Origin: Clostridia bacterium
GTDB taxonomy: Bacteria; Bacillota; Clostridia; Oscillospirales; CAG-382
Assembly (NCBI GenBank): GCA_017549365.1
Contig: JAFYUZ010000048.1
Span: 1-64,000, forward strand
Reading direction: 5' to 3'
DNA length: 64,000 nucleotides
Position numbers and translations under genes: made by a program. Under the pieces are notes generated by a model that did not search any database, was not told where the DNA came from, and was given only the letters and a program-made list of their open reading frames with translations. This document shows positions 4,001 to 12,750 of the stretch, piece by piece. How positions within the stretch are numbered: position 1 is the stretch's first letter; each line of letters opens with the position of its first letter.

Positions 4001-4051
4001 TTTAAAGTTGTATCTGAATACGTGGCATCTAAACCATTCGGCTCTTCCACG

Positions 4052-4085
4052 AAAAAGCGTACTGAAAAATTCAGTACGCTTTTTT
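4052..4085 (+). terminator. Terminator preceding repeat A2
   Basis: AAAAAGCGTACTGAA and TTCAGTACGCTTTTT around a short loop, nearly identical to the tRNA-Asn terminator at 49-83. It ends the GH116-lacI operon. Confidence 0.8.
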
Positions 4086-4089
4086 CAGC

Positions 4090-6085: not shown

Positions 6086-6091
6086 TTCTAT

Positions 6092-6190
6092 CCAATCCAA
6101 AGGATTGGCATGTAATCTCACCGCAGGTGAGTATGTGATCGCCGAAGGCGTATGGCATCACGCGTCAGCGTGTATCCTCCTTCGGATTGG
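6092..6190 (+). repeat. Cloverleaf repeat B (same architecture, different sequence)
   Basis: Outer arms CCAATCC (6092-6098) and GGATTGG (6184-6190). Inner hairpins: CCAATCC/GGATTGG (6092-6108, competing with the outer pair), CTCACC/GGTGAG (6117-6131), CGCC/GGCG (6140-6150), CACGC/GCGTG (6159-6172). Like element A it follows a terminator directly, has 3-4 base loops, and shares no obvious primary sequence with A. Single copy in this window. Confidence 0.75.
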
Positions 6191-6216
6191 TTGCATTTTT
6201 GTACTATGAGCCCATG

Positions 6217-6251
6217 AAAAAGCGTACTGAATTTTTAAGTACGCTTTTTTT
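6217..6251 (+). terminator. Terminator preceding repeat A3
   Basis: AAAAAGCGTACT (6217-6228) and AGTACGCTTTTT (6238-6249). The loop region is rearranged compared with the other copies, but the stem is kept. Confidence 0.75.
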
Positions 6252-6467: not shown

Positions 6468-7463
6468 ATGATTAATCTGAATAAAACGATTGATGGTCTT
6501 ATTTCGAATGGTACTGTAGAGCATATCGCAGTTCGCGTTGGAAAACGTGACGACGTAATTTGTGACGTTTTTCGAGGTGAGGTTTGTGAAACGACTCTTT
6601 TTGATATGGCATCAATTACAAAAATTATGGTGACGACTTCGCTTGCTTTGATTGCTCTCGATAAGGGGTTGCTTCAACTTAACGATACCGTTGACAAGTT
6701 TTATACAACTGACAAATCCTTGTCGGTAAAGAATTTACTGACACATACCATGGGAATCGGGCATAAGCCATTGAACAAAGAAGGCAATACTTATGAGAAT
6801 ATTGCTGAAAAGATCCTTGATATTCCCTCCGATATTCCAATCGGAACAGATGTGCTGTATAGCTGTCCCGGATTTATTTTGTTGGGGAAAATACTTGAAA
6901 AGATATTTGGTGAGCCTTTGAATAAATGTTTTGACGAACTCGTTGCAAAGCCGCTCGGACTTAACAACACGTCGTTTTTGCCGACGGACACATCCAATGC
7001 GGTCAATTCCAATCTGAACGAGGATAAGCGAGGAATTGTAAACGATTATAATTGTCAATTTCTCGGTGGGGTTGCGGGAAACGCGGGTCTCTTTTCAAAT
7101 ATTTATGACATTACAAAATACGTGTCTTTTATACAGAACAGAGGAAAGCCTTTATTCAGTGAAGAAACTTTTTTATTGGCGGCGCATAATCATACCATGG
7201 GAATGAGAGAATCCCGTGGGCTTGGTTTTTTGTATGTAGATGATGGATATAATCAGACAGGAGGATTGTTCTTACAAGGCGCGATAGGGCATTGTGGGCA
7301 CACGGGGCAATCGGTATTTGTCGATTACCGATCGGGGCTGTATGTGATAATCTTATCGGACGCAACAGTATCTACGGTTAGAAAGTACGGAAAAGAGCAT
7401 TATGACGAGGTTATGGATATGCGTTCGCGCGTACACGCGGCTATCAAACAAGATATGCAATAG
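6468..7463 (+). CDS. Serine hydrolase of the beta-lactamase class C / penicillin-binding family
   Basis: The 331-residue protein has the S-x-x-K motif in MASITK (about residues 48-53), a Y-S-C in place of Y-x-N (LYSCPG), and H-T-G (GHTGQS) in the position of K-T-G. Members include esterases, D-aminopeptidases and beta-lactamases; the motif variants do not point to one substrate. There is no signal peptide, which argues against a wall enzyme or antibiotic resistance. The ribosome site GAAGGCGGTGG precedes the ATG. It stands alone between repeats A3 and A4 with its own promoter. Confidence 0.85.
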   Translation: MINLNKTIDGLISNGTVEHIAVRVGKRDDVICDVFRGEVCETTLFDMASITKIMVTTSLALIALDKGLLQLNDTVDKFYTTDKSLSVKNLLTHTMGIGHKPLNKEGNTYENIAEKILDIPSDIPIGTDVLYSCPGFILLGKILEKIFGEPLNKCFDELVAKPLGLNNTSFLPTDTSNAVNSNLNEDKRGIVNDYNCQFLGGVAGNAGLFSNIYDITKYVSFIQNRGKPLFSEETFLLAAHNHTMGMRESRGLGFLYVDDGYNQTGGLFLQGAIGHCGHTGQSVFVDYRSGLYVIILSDATVSTVRKYGKEHYDEVMDMRSRVHAAIKQDMQ

Positions 7464-7510
7464 GTAAGAAATATTCGGTTATGGGTTCGAAATTGTTGGG
7501 GTAAGCCATG

Positions 7511-7545
7511 AAAAAAGCGTACTGAAAAATTCAGTACGCTTTTTT
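7511..7545 (+). terminator. Terminator preceding repeat A4
   Basis: AAAAAAGCGTACTGAA and TTCAGTACGCTTTTT, the same stem as at 49-83. The 25 bases before it (near 7485-7508) end in AAGCCATG and begin GGTTCGA, resembling a decayed tRNA T-arm and CCA end. Confidence 0.8.
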
Positions 7546-7549
7546 CAGC

Positions 7550-7649
7550 GATATAAATTCCTGACGGAATTTGCTATATGTACTTCGTACACGATATATC
7601 TTCGATGCGATATGTTGCCTTGCGGCAACGCGGAAAAGGAATTTATATC
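7550..7649 (+). repeat. Cloverleaf repeat A, copy A4 (complete)
   Basis: Outer arms GATATAAATTCC (7550-7561) and GGAATTTATATC (7638-7649). The inner hairpins are as in A1, with a few substitutions. Confidence 0.85.
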
Positions 7650-7775
7650 ATATCGTAACCGAATGAAATGAGGTTATATCGAATTTGCGAAGCAAATATA
7701 TCGAACGAGCGTTAGCGAGTATATCGCCCGTTTGTTTTTCTCAAGAAGTCCAAGTTGAAAAACTTGGATTTTTTT
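7650..7775 (+). repeat. Tail of A4: hairpin modules and second terminator-like stem
   Basis: TAACC (7656-7660)/GGTTA (7672-7676) around an 11-base loop corresponds to TAACT/AGTTA in A1, with both sides changed together. An extra module ATTTGC-GAA-GCAAAT, absent from the A1 tail, follows. Then comes a hairpin TCCAAGTT (7749-7756)/AACTTGGA (7761-7768) with a T run. Confidence 0.7.
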
Positions 7776-7788
7776 CATTTAAATACCA

Positions 7789-7905
7789 GGTAGAGCACAT
7801 GACAGTGGAAGATTACGCAATGCGTAATCTTCAGAAGATACGAAGCTTCGCTTCGAATCTTCCATAATCATGGGGTCGTTGGTTTGAGCTGGGCAGGGGG
7901 AGCCA
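7789..7905 (+). pseudogene. tRNA-Asn pseudogene interrupted by element C
   Basis: GGTAGAGCACATGAC (7789-7803) matches the D-arm and 5' anticodon stem, and TAATCATGGGGTCGTTGG onward (7865-7905) matches the 3' half ending AGGGGGAGCCA. About 60 bases replace the anticodon. The T-arm 3' strand is TGGGC instead of CCAAC, so the T-stem cannot form, and there is no acceptor 5' strand. It cannot be a working tRNA but clearly descends from the gene at the window's left end. Confidence 0.75.
7806..7864 (+). repeat. Cloverleaf element C inserted at the tRNA anticodon
   Basis: Outer arms TGGAAGATT (7806-7814) and AATCTTCCA (7856-7864). Two inner hairpins: GAAGATTACGC/GCGTAATCTTC with a 3-base loop, and CGAAGC-TTC-GCTTCG. 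At 59 bases it has the same layout as A and B. A truncated second copy is at 322-370. Confidence 0.75.
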
Positions 7906-7907
7906 TG

Positions 7908-7942
7908 AAAAAAGCGTACTGAAAAATTCAGTACGCTTTTTT
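7908..7942 (+). terminator. Terminator preceding repeat A5
   Basis: AAAAAAGCGTACTGAA (7908-7923) and TTCAGTACGCTTTTTT (7927-7942). It lies 2 bases after the CCA of the tRNA-Asn pseudogene, exactly as for the tRNA at the window's left end. Confidence 0.8.
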
Positions 7943-7946
7943 CAGC

Positions 7947-8033
7947 GATATAAATTCCTGACGGAATTTACTATATGTACTTCGTACGCGATATATCTTC
8001 GATGCGATATGTTGCCTTGCGGCAACGCGGAAA
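7947..8033 (+). repeat. Cloverleaf repeat A, copy A5 (right arm missing)
   Basis: Left arm GATATAAATTCC (7947-7958) and the inner hairpins match A1 until about 8033. The right outer arm is lost, and unrelated sequence leading to the next gene's promoter follows. Confidence 0.75.
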
Positions 8034-8085
8034 ATGAAGAATCATGGTGTTTTTTCCGGAGTAACAAAAATATTTTTGTTTTATG

Positions 8086-8113
8086 TTGAAAATGTTCGAT
8101 ATTATGGTATAAT
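8086..8113 (+). promoter_or_regulatory. Promoter of the metallophosphoesterase gene
   Basis: TTGAAA (8086-8091), 16-base spacer, TATAAT (8108-8113). Confidence 0.6.
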
Positions 8114-8182
8114 TCTTACATGATGATTTAAATAAATGAAAATGATACTGTTGGTACCGATCATTTGCTGAGGTGACATCTA

Positions 8183-9049
8183 ATGAACATAAACCATTCA
8201 AAAACTGAAACAAAAAGAACGCGCGTGATTCTTATGTCAGACATTCATTACTGCAATGAATGGTATGGGATTACTCCGGAAATTAAACGAGAAATGCTTT
8301 GCGCGGATTTAGAGCGCGAATACGAAGAAGATCCCTACCAAGCGCTTTTGTTGCTTGGAGATTATTCCCTTGACCATTGGGCGTGGAACACCAAAGGCAC
8401 CTATCTGACGCATGGCATCAGCAATGCAAAACGATTTGTCGAGCATTGTTTGCCGCGAATGGCACCAAGCGGTGTTGAGGTTCGCATGATAGCGGGTAAT
8501 CATGAGCAGTATGGTGAGGCTCTTTGGCAGAAATTAACGGGTTTCAATCGAAAAGATCATTTGGTTTGCGGTTCTGTGCTTTTTATTTTGCTTGATACGT
8601 TTGGCGGTGATCTCGATCCGGTTGAACACAGCGATGGCACCTATATAGGCGCGAATATGGCGGATCTGCGAGTTCTTATGGCACGTTATCCCGATAAAAA
8701 AGTAATTTTGTGTGCGCATTGGTTTGATATGCAAAAGGAAACCGACGAATTTCGTTCTTTTATTGCGCAAGAGCCTCGAATTTTATGTTTGTTTTGTGGA
8801 CATAATCATATCTCCAAAGTTGTATCTACGGGAGAGGAATACGGCAACAAGCCCATTATTTATACCGGTCATTACTCATATTCCGGCGATATGAACCCGG
8901 TGCATTGCTTGAATGGCTACAGAGAAGTTCTTATTATGGAAGATGGGATCACGTCAAAATATATTGTACCGTCCCATACCTATACGATGGAGGCCGTGAA
9001 ATTTACGACCGAGTACGCTGAACAGGATGATGTGGAGATTAAATTTTAG
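8183..9049 (+). CDS. Calcineurin-like metallophosphoesterase
   Basis: The 288-residue protein has the full metal-binding motif series of the metallophosphatase superfamily: MSDIH, LLGDYS, AGNHEQ, LCAHW and CGHNH. These ligate two divalent metals to hydrolyse phosphomonoesters or diesters. No signal peptide or membrane segment, so cytoplasmic. GAGGTGA lies upstream of the start. Substrate cannot be read from sequence. It follows the last copy of repeat A and has its own promoter and terminator. Confidence 0.88.
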   Translation: MNINHSKTETKRTRVILMSDIHYCNEWYGITPEIKREMLCADLEREYEEDPYQALLLLGDYSLDHWAWNTKGTYLTHGISNAKRFVEHCLPRMAPSGVEVRMIAGNHEQYGEALWQKLTGFNRKDHLVCGSVLFILLDTFGGDLDPVEHSDGTYIGANMADLRVLMARYPDKKVILCAHWFDMQKETDEFRSFIAQEPRILCLFCGHNHISKVVSTGEEYGNKPIIYTGHYSYSGDMNPVHCLNGYREVLIMEDGITSKYIVPSHTYTMEAVKFTTEYAEQDDVEIKF

Positions 9050-9107
9050 TTTTGATGGGTATACATATTTTCACGATTAAAAGGTTTGAATTTGTTGGGG
9101 AACTCCG

Positions 9108-9139
9108 AAAAAGGCACTTGCTTTTGCAGGTGCCTTTTT
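9108..9139 (+). terminator. Terminator of the metallophosphoesterase gene
   Basis: AAAAAGGCAC and GTGCCTTTTT, with TGC/GCA continuing the stem after one mismatch, around TTTT. Confidence 0.85.
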
Positions 9140-9178
9140 CAATTATATTGCTTTTTCCTGCGAAACAAGCGATTGATA

Positions 9179-9207
9179 TTGACAGTGATATTGGTTTGTG
9201 CTACAAT
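9179..9207 (+). promoter_or_regulatory. Promoter of the 634-residue protein gene
   Basis: TTGACA (9179-9184), 17-base spacer, TACAAT (9202-9207). Confidence 0.75.
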
Positions 9208-9262
9208 TCTGTCGGAATTCTCAATGTAGTATGAGGTTTTTTATTGTTTAAGGAGTGTTTAT

Positions 9263-11167
9263 ATGTATAAAATTTCGGTACCAATTATGTCTACCACAGT
9301 CAATATGAGCAATCGCGAAGAATTTGTGCGACAGTTCAGAGAAGCCGGCGCAGAAAGAGTTTTTATTGCAATGGGAACCCCTGTGCGACCTATTCCGCAA
9401 CACATCATTGACAATGTAAGTTTTTTCAAATCCCACGGCTTTGAGGTGGGAGTATGGATAGATACTATAGGTCATGGCTTTGTTCTTGCACACGTTGAAG
9501 AAGATAATCCTTTGCTTAACTTCACACAAATGGTAGATTTGGACGGAAAGCGTTTGAACTATGCAAATTGTCCATGTGATGAGGGTTTTCAAAAATACAT
9601 TTCCGAATATGTTGGAGATCTTGCAAAAACAGGAGCAGATATCGTTATGCTTGATGACGATTTCAGAATGTCTCAACATAGAGGAAACCTTTCTTGTGCC
9701 TGCCCGAAGCATATGGAACGTATAGCAAGAACGCTTGGTGAACGCATTTCTGTTGATGAGTTAAGGCCTTATGTTCTCACAGGGAAAGCCAACAAATACA
9801 GAAACGCCTGGATGCAAGCGCAAAACGAAGGACTTATTGAATTTGCAAAAGAAATACGCCAATCGGTGGATGCGGTTAATCCTGATGTTATCGTTTGTAT
9901 TTGTACTGCGTGTGCGCCTTGGAATGTTGATGGGCTTGATGTTTCTGCTGTTACCAAAATACTTGCAGGCAAAAACAAACCAATAGTAAGATTGACGGGC
10001 GCGCCGTATTGGGCGACAAAAGACTTCAGATATCCGCTTATAACAGTGTTTGAGATTGCGAGAATGCTTGCCTCATTTGTTTCGGGAAACGGTTTTGAAA
10101 TTATGAGTGAAGGTGACGTTTATCCACGTCCGAGATATACTTGTCCCGCATCGTATCTTGAATTGTACGATGCTGTTACTCGTATTGACGGAGCTTACAG
10201 CGGAATACTTAAATATATGTTTGATTACGTTGCAGGACCGAATTTTGAAACGGGGTATTTGAAATTTCATAAATATAACGAGCCGTATTTGAAAAAACTG
10301 AGTGATTTTTTTGCGGAAGGCGCAAATGCGGGAGTCAAAATCATCACCTATCCTCACACAATGAAAGACGCTGATCTTGATGTTTCAACGCTTCATGTGT
10401 ATTCGCCGTGTCCTGCTGATGCCACGATGCTTGGAAGCTGCGGCATCCCCACGATCTATAGGGGAAAAGGTGTATGCAATTCTGTTTTCGGAGAAAATGC
10501 CCGTTCTTTTGATCTTTCAATGTTGGGTGAAGGTACCATATTGGATGCTGTTTCCGCAATGATCCTTACTGAACGCGGGGTCGATGTGGGACTTGAAACG
10601 TACGATGAGCTTGTTGATAAAAATATATCCTTCCTTTGCACAAAGGATGTTGAATACAAATCCTTTATTTCAAGAGGTAAAGCGAGAATGCTCACTCCAA
10701 TTCTCAAGGAATCGTCAGAACAGCTGCTATTTGCAACAGAGCAAAACAATAAGTGTACCGTAGCTTATAAATACGAAAATGCAAACGGCGAAAGGTTTCT
10801 TGTTTTCCTTTTTGAAGGAGATTCGATTTTCGGCGAAACATATATGCGCGACTCGGGACTTTTAAAGAATTATGCCACACAAAAAGTTCTTACGGAAGAA
10901 CTTCCCTGGGTTGCGAGAAAGGCACTTCCTGCATACTGTGTTGGAAATCCTGAGCTTTATCTTATGTGCAGAAAAGAGGAGGATTCCGTGTCGGTAGCTA
11001 TGTTTAACTGCTTTGCAGATCCCATTATAGATGCCACAGTAGTCATCGACGGAGAATACAAGACGATCGAGTGTGTGGGCTGTGAGGCTGAGCTTTTAGA
11101 CAATAAGGTGATCCTCAAGGAACCATTGTACGGTTTTACTTCTGCTGTGTTCAGAGTGCGCAGATAA
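9263..11167 (+). CDS. Large TIM-barrel-like protein, probable glycosidase of unassigned family
   Basis: I cannot name a family for this 634-residue protein. The N-terminal half reads like a beta/alpha barrel (AGAERVFIAMGTPV, HGFEVGVWIDTIGHG, GADIVMLDDDFRMS, PDVIVCICTACAPWNVDG, GNGFEIMSEGDVYPRPRY). The middle has a Rossmann-like stretch (KIITYPHTMKDADLD onward), and the C-terminal part is a beta-sandwich-like tail. This layout resembles large bacterial glycosidases of the GH42 kind, with acidic residues at strand ends (DDD, SEGD), but the match is only by general pattern. No signal peptide. AAGGAG precedes the start. It is monocistronic with its own promoter. Confidence 0.55.
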   Translation: MYKISVPIMSTTVNMSNREEFVRQFREAGAERVFIAMGTPVRPIPQHIIDNVSFFKSHGFEVGVWIDTIGHGFVLAHVEEDNPLLNFTQMVDLDGKRLNYANCPCDEGFQKYISEYVGDLAKTGADIVMLDDDFRMSQHRGNLSCACPKHMERIARTLGERISVDELRPYVLTGKANKYRNAWMQAQNEGLIEFAKEIRQSVDAVNPDVIVCICTACAPWNVDGLDVSAVTKILAGKNKPIVRLTGAPYWATKDFRYPLITVFEIARMLASFVSGNGFEIMSEGDVYPRPRYTCPASYLELYDAVTRIDGAYSGILKYMFDYVAGPNFETGYLKFHKYNEPYLKKLSDFFAEGANAGVKIITYPHTMKDADLDVSTLHVYSPCPADATMLGSCGIPTIYRGKGVCNSVFGENARSFDLSMLGEGTILDAVSAMILTERGVDVGLETYDELVDKNISFLCTKDVEYKSFISRGKARMLTPILKESSEQLLFATEQNNKCTVAYKYENANGERFLVFLFEGDSIFGETYMRDSGLLKNYATQKVLTEELPWVARKALPAYCVGNPELYLMCRKEEDSVSVAMFNCFADPIIDATVVIDGEYKTIECVGCEAELLDNKVILKEPLYGFTSAVFRVRR

Positions 11168-11505
11168 CGAAAAGACCTTGAAATCCGACCCCGTTATTGT
11201 TTGGATTTCAAGACGAACACGGCTTGCCCCTACCGCGCTTTTAGACAAACATCCTTATCAGAAGTCTGTTTTTGGCAAGTGCTTTTTTAGGCGATGTTTG
11301 CCTGCGTAAATTGATGTTGTTTGACTCGCGACCGATATTCGCAAATCACGCACGAAAACGGCGGATTTTCCATAGATTTTTTGCACAATATACTTGAAAA
11401 AACGACATTTTTTGAAATGCAAGTGTTGCTTGACAATATTCCAAATGAATTTTATTGCTTTTTTCGACGCCAAATGTTATAATTTGACAAAAGGAAGTGA
11501 TTTTT
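11168..11505. other. Intergenic stretch with one long hairpin and the XRE promoter
   Basis: CTTGAAATCC (11177-11186) and GGATTTCAAG (11203-11212) form a 10-bp stem without a T run, possibly a weak terminator for the preceding gene. TATAAT at 11478-11483 with TTGCTT (11455-11460) 17 bases upstream is a likely promoter for the XRE gene. No gene is seen here. Confidence 0.5.
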
Positions 11506-12750
11506 TTGTTAAGCGATAATATCAGAAAATACCGAAAAGCAAAGCATATGTCCCAGGATGAACTGGCCGAAAAATTGGAAGTGACAAGGCAAAGCGTGAG
11601 TTTATGGGAAACCGGTCAGACACAACCGTCTCTTGATAATATAATTGCATTGGCAAATTTATTTGATATTTCCACAGATGCTTTATTAAAAGACAGCGAG
11701 CCTGATTCTGATGTGGCGGACACGGCAGAGGTGGCTGTTGCTCATTTCGAGAAACCTGCAAAAAAGAAAAAAACGGCTTTGATCGTGGCAATCTGTTGCA
11801 TCGTCGTTGCCGTTGCAGTTGCAGTTGCAGGTGTTTTGATGTGGAAAAACGGCATTTTCGGTTCTGATTCGGGCGATGGTGATGCGGTGAATACCGACGC
11901 TTTGATCGATACCGATGCTGACGATAGTTCAAACTCCGACAAAACGGATGTTGAAGATGCGCAAGAAGCGACAGAGGACGGAACAAAAGAATCGGAAGAT
12001 AAAATCACCCCCGACGTTTCGGAAAAGACGGAAGAAGATCCGGTCGACGGCGGAAATGAAAATGTTCCGTCAACCGAAGACACAGGTGACACTAAAGGCA
12101 ACGCACAAACCACTGTCCCCGAAGAGCCGATTGTGACACCGCCTGCTACTGCGGACAAACCTCAGCCGCCCGTTTCGCAACAGGGTACTACGCAAAGCAA
12201 TCCCCAGACCACTATCCCCGAACCTCCTGCAAGCGTGGTTGTTCCACAACCGAACGAGCCAAAGGATATATACGGATATCTCAAAAATTTTGTTATCCAA
12301 AACGGAATAATCAACGGCGACTATTGCTATTATTCCAATGATGCCGATAGATACGGCGGATATGCCTCCGAAAGATTTTCGCTTTATTATTGGGGAGACA
12401 CCGAGAAAATAGAATTTTGTCTGCACAGCGTTTTGGACGATATGTTCAGCATAAACTTCTATATTTACGTTCCCAAAGAGCACACCGGCAAGTACGATTA
12501 TATTTCTTCGTATTATTACAGAGATACGGGCGAGCCGTTGTTTGAGGCGAAGGGCGTGATAGATGCCGCTGTTTTCACAAAAAATTACCCCTTGAACTGC
12601 ACGAGATACACCGGATCAACAGATGCCCAAAACGGCTTTATGGAAATGAGCCGTCAGGGAATATGCGATCTGATCGATTGCCTTAAAAATTTCATCGTTG
12701 TGGAAAATATCAAGTATTCGTTCTATGATTTCGGTTTCTTGAATTTTTAA
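11506..12750 (+). CDS. Membrane-anchored XRE-family regulator with long acidic linker
   Basis: The 414-residue protein starts with an XRE helix-turn-helix (NIRKYRKAKHMSQDELAEKL, RQSVSLWETGQTQPSLDNI). A basic patch (KPAKKKKT) and one transmembrane helix (about residues 90-110) follow. Then comes roughly 140 residues of low-complexity Asp/Glu/Ser/Thr/Pro linker and an outside beta-rich domain (DIYGYLKNFVIQNG onward). DNA binding inside and a sensor outside suggest a one-component surface sensor. GGAAGTG (11493-11499) favours the TTG start at 11506; a GTG at 11497 lies within that site. The reading frame continues recognisably after the stop codon (see next entry), so the last domain is probably truncated. 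Confidence 0.75.
   Translation: MLSDNIRKYRKAKHMSQDELAEKLEVTRQSVSLWETGQTQPSLDNIIALANLFDISTDALLKDSEPDSDVADTAEVAVAHFEKPAKKKKTALIVAICCIVVAVAVAVAGVLMWKNGIFGSDSGDGDAVNTDALIDTDADDSSNSDKTDVEDAQEATEDGTKESEDKITPDVSEKTEEDPVDGGNENVPSTEDTGDTKGNAQTTVPEEPIVTPPATADKPQPPVSQQGTTQSNPQTTIPEPPASVVVPQPNEPKDIYGYLKNFVIQNGIINGDYCYYSNDADRYGGYASERFSLYYWGDTEKIEFCLHSVLDDMFSINFYIYVPKEHTGKYDYISSYYYRDTGEPLFEAKGVIDAAVFTKNYPLNCTRYTGSTDAQNGFMEMSRQGICDLIDCLKNFIVVENIKYSFYDFGFLNF

Follow-up and report, generated by a model that had tools for sequence, protein, structure and literature searches.

The split tRNA-Asn sequence at positions 7789 to 7905 of the window is probably a dead, inherited relic that was multiplied by local duplication. 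The window is the whole 64,000-nucleotide stretch analyzed here, contig C39 of a 2.5-Mb draft genome (G000) in 124 contigs. As the reference for both halves of the relic we used the functional tRNA-Asn gene of the sister species G003 (C64:633-708; TCCTCCTTAGCTCAGTCGGTAGAGCACATGACTGTTAATCATGGGGTCGTTGGTTCGAGCCCAACAGGGGGAGCCA). Aligned to this gene, the fragment reads as tRNA-Asn positions 18 to 32, a 61-nt insert, and positions 36 to 76:

7789 to 7803, + strand: tRNA-Asn positions 18 to 32, D-loop to anticodon stem (alignment to the G003 gene, 15-mer search)
7804 to 7864, + strand: insert of AG plus element C (7806 to 7864), two tandem hairpins in place of T33-G34-T35 (folds; present again in G003, diverged in G001)
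7865 to 7905, + strand: tRNA-Asn positions 36 to 76, with the T-arm damaged (CCAAC to TGGGC; alignment to the G003 gene)

The 5' piece matches the reference exactly, and its 15-mer was found only at 305 and 7789 (0 expected in shuffles). The 3' piece is 88% identical to the reference, and the 20-mer TAATCATGGGGTCGTTGGTT has no occurrence other than those at 6 and 7865. Both matches go far beyond what chance would give. Between the two pieces, 61 nt (2 nt and then the 59-nt element C) replace T33, G34, and T35, and the original prediction, a tRNA-Asn pseudogene with an insert at its anticodon, holds. It had also described a D-arm and a 3' half on either side of C; the 3' half is there, as is part of the D-loop, and the 5' strand of the D-stem is absent.

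Missing from the relic are the 5' strands of both the acceptor stem and the D-stem, along with part of the D-loop; in its T-stem, CCAAC has become TGGGC. ARAGORN called no tRNA gene anywhere in the window, at the split site, or with the flanks joined, and called the G003 gene at once. The local stretch gave no Rfam tRNA match, even at E values up to 10, and no promoter-like site was found ahead of the relic (7400 to 7900). Judged by sequence, tRNA function is lost: with the 5' strands gone, the T-stem changed, and no tRNA detected, splicing could not produce a working tRNA here.

The predicted fold of C alone has a free energy of -29.6 kcal/mol (z = -8.0) and consists of two hairpins in tandem. 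In the predicted fold of the whole fragment, both hairpins sit on a 3-bp TGG/CCA base, stacking on the tRNA's own anticodon stem. "Cloverleaf," the term first used for C, is too strong for this fold, and the outer inverted repeat (TGGAAGATT/AATCTTCCA) described along with two inner hairpins uses the same bases as they do, so that all of these cannot pair simultaneously. Between the window and the diverged form in the congener G001, five base pairs differ by changes to both partners that preserve pairing (one in hairpin 1 and four in hairpin 2), a count that rests on manual alignment of the G001 form with C. The pairing has thus persisted between species, and the five compensatory changes suggest that something maintains the structure. 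They are not proof of selection, because template-switch repair can also keep palindromes.

In G000, the search for the first hairpin of C found it at just two places, 323 and 7807. The first of these places belongs to a second copy of the split relic:

305 to 319, + strand: tRNA-Asn 5' piece (positions 18 to 32), copy 2 (15-mer search)
320 to 362, + strand: element C, truncated copy (hairpin search, alignment)

This copy is identical to the relic through ...GAAGCT[C/T]CGCTTC and divergent afterwards; it ends inside C, with the 3' part lost. The second, truncated junction predicted at 305 to 370 is therefore confirmed, at 305 to about 362. The proposed spread by duplication of the locus is likewise supported, as 42 to 370 and 7504 to 7855 are 90% alike.

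G003 carries the relic at 98% identity over 120 nt (C identical at 60/60 positions), and 277 of the 285 nucleotides at 7504 to 7788 are identical as well. The unit common to the window and the G003 metagenome-assembled genome (MAG) spans 402 nt and lies there inside a syntenic contig, adjoining DNA syntenic with window positions 11072 to 44707. G003 keeps the split unit and the backbone from 11072 onward, without 7906 to 11071. Unusual conservation of the split unit relative to its surroundings was considered and rejected: the neighboring 11072 to 12000 is also 97 to 100% identical to G003.

A longer, diverged relative of C (about 150 nt; form E) is present three times in G001, and its last two hairpins correspond to C. 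Two of the three copies abut a tRNA-Asn 3' half starting at position 35; the third runs into the next copy. One of them has the same TGGGC change in the T-arm as the window and G003 copies, which suggests descent from a single ancestral relic. In its 3' half, the best G001 copy matches the functional tRNA-Asn of G002 without a difference, and the 3' halves of the window and G003 split copies follow the G003 variant. Such matches to each lineage's own tRNA leave room for gene conversion or recurrent capture and in that respect speak against a single old event.

Element C was found in G000, G003, and G001 only, among 60 relatives searched with the split tRNA and 119 searched with the G001 form. 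Across 394 genomes of the order, tRNA-Asn with 45 to 75 extra bases at the anticodon was seen only in G000 and G003, and none had 14 to 44 extra bases; these patterns allowed zero mismatch, so that decayed cases would escape. The searches sampled a collection of 97,973 genomes. Phages, plasmids, and viral contigs gave no match to C, one of the patterns being narrow enough to miss the shorter G001 form. We rejected C as a dispersed repeat, since it occurs at this relic lineage only. Nor does it lie mostly outside tRNA genes, the outcome that would have refuted the original prediction: it sits at tRNA-Asn relics except in one of the three G001 copies. Every copy goes back to one relic lineage, so C may have come to lie at the anticodon just once.

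The relic is part of an array of tRNA tails, terminators, and hairpins that begins at the contig start:

1 to 46, + strand: tRNA-Asn 3' part (positions 31 to 76), intact, at the contig start (100% identical over 46 nt to the G003 gene)
47 to 85, + strand: bidirectional terminator-type hairpin GCGTACTGAA/TTCAGTACGC with A and T tracts (repeat search, sequence)
86 to 301, + strand: Gut-1-like hairpin array B plus further hairpins, copy 1 (90% identical to 7545 to 7788)
7483 to 7508, + strand: degenerate tRNA-like tail GGTTCGAAATTGTTGGGGTAAGCCA (sequence; also at C6:1052)
7509 to 7788, + strand: terminator hairpin, Gut-1-like array B, further hairpins, and a second terminator-type hairpin at 7743 to 7774 (G003 comparison, repeats)
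7906 to 8038, + strand: terminator hairpin and hairpin array B, next copy (repeat D1)

After every tRNA tail in the array comes the same terminator-type hairpin, with array B behind it; some of these repeats still carry a tRNA-Asn tail. Terminator-plus-B units number five within the first 8 kb of C39 and two within the first 3.4 kb of contig C6. The shared terminator hairpin with its Gut-1-like array lies at 47 to 85, 4052 to 4087, 6212 to 6250, 7509 to 7547, and 7906 to 7944 and at C6:1078 and C6:3270. The tail at 1 to 46 is the third tRNA-Asn tail and probably the end of a real gene closing an rRNA operon; we infer this link because the window's rRNA operon is unassembled. In G003, the rRNA-operon tail runs 23S end, tRNA-Lys, 5S-like sequence, and tRNA-Asn (rRNA labels read from the sequence). 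tRNA-Asn also ends this tail in G052 and other family members, with a terminator and similar hairpins next, and contigs of other family members begin or end inside tRNA-Asn as well (L070, L081, and L083). The array is probably preceded by an rRNA operon that has tRNA-Asn at its end.

Between the units lie a GH116-type glucosidase with a LacI regulator, an AraC regulator with an alpha-L-fucosidase, and a beta-lactamase-fold hydrolase with a phosphoesterase. In C6, a pair of AraC-like regulator and GH28-like enzyme (labels read from the sequence, not a Pfam result) adjoins such a unit, and its ortholog stands beside the C/tRNA unit of G001, where the remaining neighborhood differs. The two cassettes span C6:3482-5827 and G001:C35:28724-31060. 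There is no integrase on C39 or C6; the only two integrase-family genes of G000 are both on C42.

The arrays after the terminators are related to the Gut-1 RNA motif (RF01706; Weinberg et al. 2010, PMC2864571). Two array B copies in the window scored 30.1 and 23.9 bits against the Gut-1 model, below the gathering cutoff of 50 and thus short of membership; across G000, three matches were above the cutoff and twenty below. Unlike a single RNA gene, the arrays here are many intergenic repeats. Element C itself had no match to the motif.

The main alternative for the position of C at the anticodon is an old anticodon-type attachment site. The tRNA pieces would then be displaced tDNA fragments of islands integrated in tRNA-Asn through an anticodon-centered crossover, and C or its longer G001 form would be a residual island end whose integrase was lost. 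We regard this as possible though unlikely. Anticodon-centered crossovers are a main subsite in tRNA genes, and 3' fragments are their usual mark (PMC4383910). As with Islander-type fragments, the 3' piece reaches the tRNA 3' end (CCA) and lies in direct orientation downstream of a tRNA tail on the same strand (1 to 46), with variable cassettes between. Some 3' halves begin at the anticodon: those in G001 (position 35) and the one in G014, which has unrelated DNA ahead of CTGTTAATCA. The orthologous AraC and GH28-like pair in different neighborhoods would also fit. The interval, however, holds no integrase, a displaced fragment should not bear a 5' piece (18 to 32) directly before C, and Islander-type fragments have no hairpin insert between halves. 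The units moreover share about 140 nt past the tRNA, which exceeds an attachment core, and phage and plasmid matches were nil, with no viral contig carrying the exact 42-nt 3' half. An integron-like arrangement, in which the C/E hairpin, the host-matched tRNA-Asn 3' half, and the terminator formed a recombination site of a trans-acting system gathering carbohydrate cassettes downstream of rRNA operons, is a good deal less probable and would imply tRNA-derived sites with no local recombinase.

C as a site-specific element, as originally proposed, is not supported. A small, nonautonomous, hairpin-ended element inserting specifically in tRNA-Asn anticodon loops would account for the hairpins with their conserved pairing, the tRNA-Asn context of five of the six known copies, and the lineage-matched 3' halves beside C. 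We nevertheless consider it improbable, as C was seen neither elsewhere in the 119 relatives nor at other tRNA-Asn genes, the 394-genome search yielding only this locus and its G003 ortholog. In the same genomes, we found neither copies at several independent tRNA genes nor pairs of filled and empty sites. C also has no readable target-site duplication and no mobility gene nearby, and the shared T-arm damage of its copies points to one ancestor. A tRNA intron or failed intron is hardly credible. C is positioned at the anticodon, as are group I introns in bacterial tRNA genes, and the anticodon stem can still pair around it. Unlike those introns, it is 59 nt long and without an intron core, and its host is a dead fragment. 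With the acceptor and D-arm 5' strands missing, the T-stem damaged, and no tRNA called with the flanks joined, this is not an intron-bearing gene. There was no Rfam match to a group I or other intron, and none of the interrupted copies had an otherwise intact cloverleaf, so an intron in this copy is ruled out and the "intron-like" description falls. A group I intron would have to be longer than C, and bacteria are not known to have the protein-spliced intron pathway. An assembly artifact joining repeats is very improbable too: the locus is rich in repeats and several contigs break at tRNA-Asn, yet the MAG of another species contains the same 402-nt unit within a syntenic contig.

The history that we favor, an inherited relic, would start from the tRNA-Asn gene closing an rRNA operon in the genus, of which the relic would be a dead fragment. 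It would be one of several partial copies of the operon tail (tRNA-Asn 3' part, terminator, and Gut-1-like array) situated between carbohydrate-gene cassettes. Before at least three species of the genus diverged, hairpin sequence would have taken the place of the anticodon loop in one such fragment; this sequence is now about 150 nt long in G001 and 59 nt in this genome. The fragment would then have been inherited and locally duplicated together with its unit, possibly by homologous recombination, and would yield no tRNA. The simplest history of the array is repeated partial duplication of the operon tail with turnover of the cassettes between repeats, and the split form probably had a single origin. 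Pairing in C could be upheld by weak selection, in a terminator or RNA-structure role, or by replication errors that correct palindromes. The relic probably lacks any function. As it stands, it is a curiosity, a hairpin insert at the anticodon of a dead tRNA fragment that could readily pass for an intron or a targeted element. The repeated rRNA-operon tails between sugar-use cassettes may show gene accumulation beside rRNA operons in uncultured gut-type bacteria.

Several other sequences were seen around these tails. A conserved GGCATCTAAACCATTCGGCTCTTCCA-like sequence, in which no tRNA was detected, stands between gene end and terminator in three species (window 4024-4049; C6:3244-3262; G003:C29:36573-36591; G004:C58:1258-1276). 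Tails of a second type (GGCATCTAAACCATTCGGC) were considered as pieces of another tRNA and rejected, as no such tRNA was found. In another genus, L045 (G025:C2:25531) is a tRNA-Asn relic without an insert that is truncated near the D-loop point of the window's 5' piece. G000 also has a second functional tRNA-Asn of quite different sequence (82% identical), L012 (G000:C93:3052-3127), on a 3.2-kb contig with a 5S-like sequence upstream; it possibly reflects contamination of the draft genome (estimated at 5.1%). Finally, a hairpin array of the type CCAATCC...GGATTGG stands without a tRNA at window positions 6088 to 6190, whereas in a different genus of this family such arrays come after the terminators of tRNA-Asn (L042, L069, and L070).
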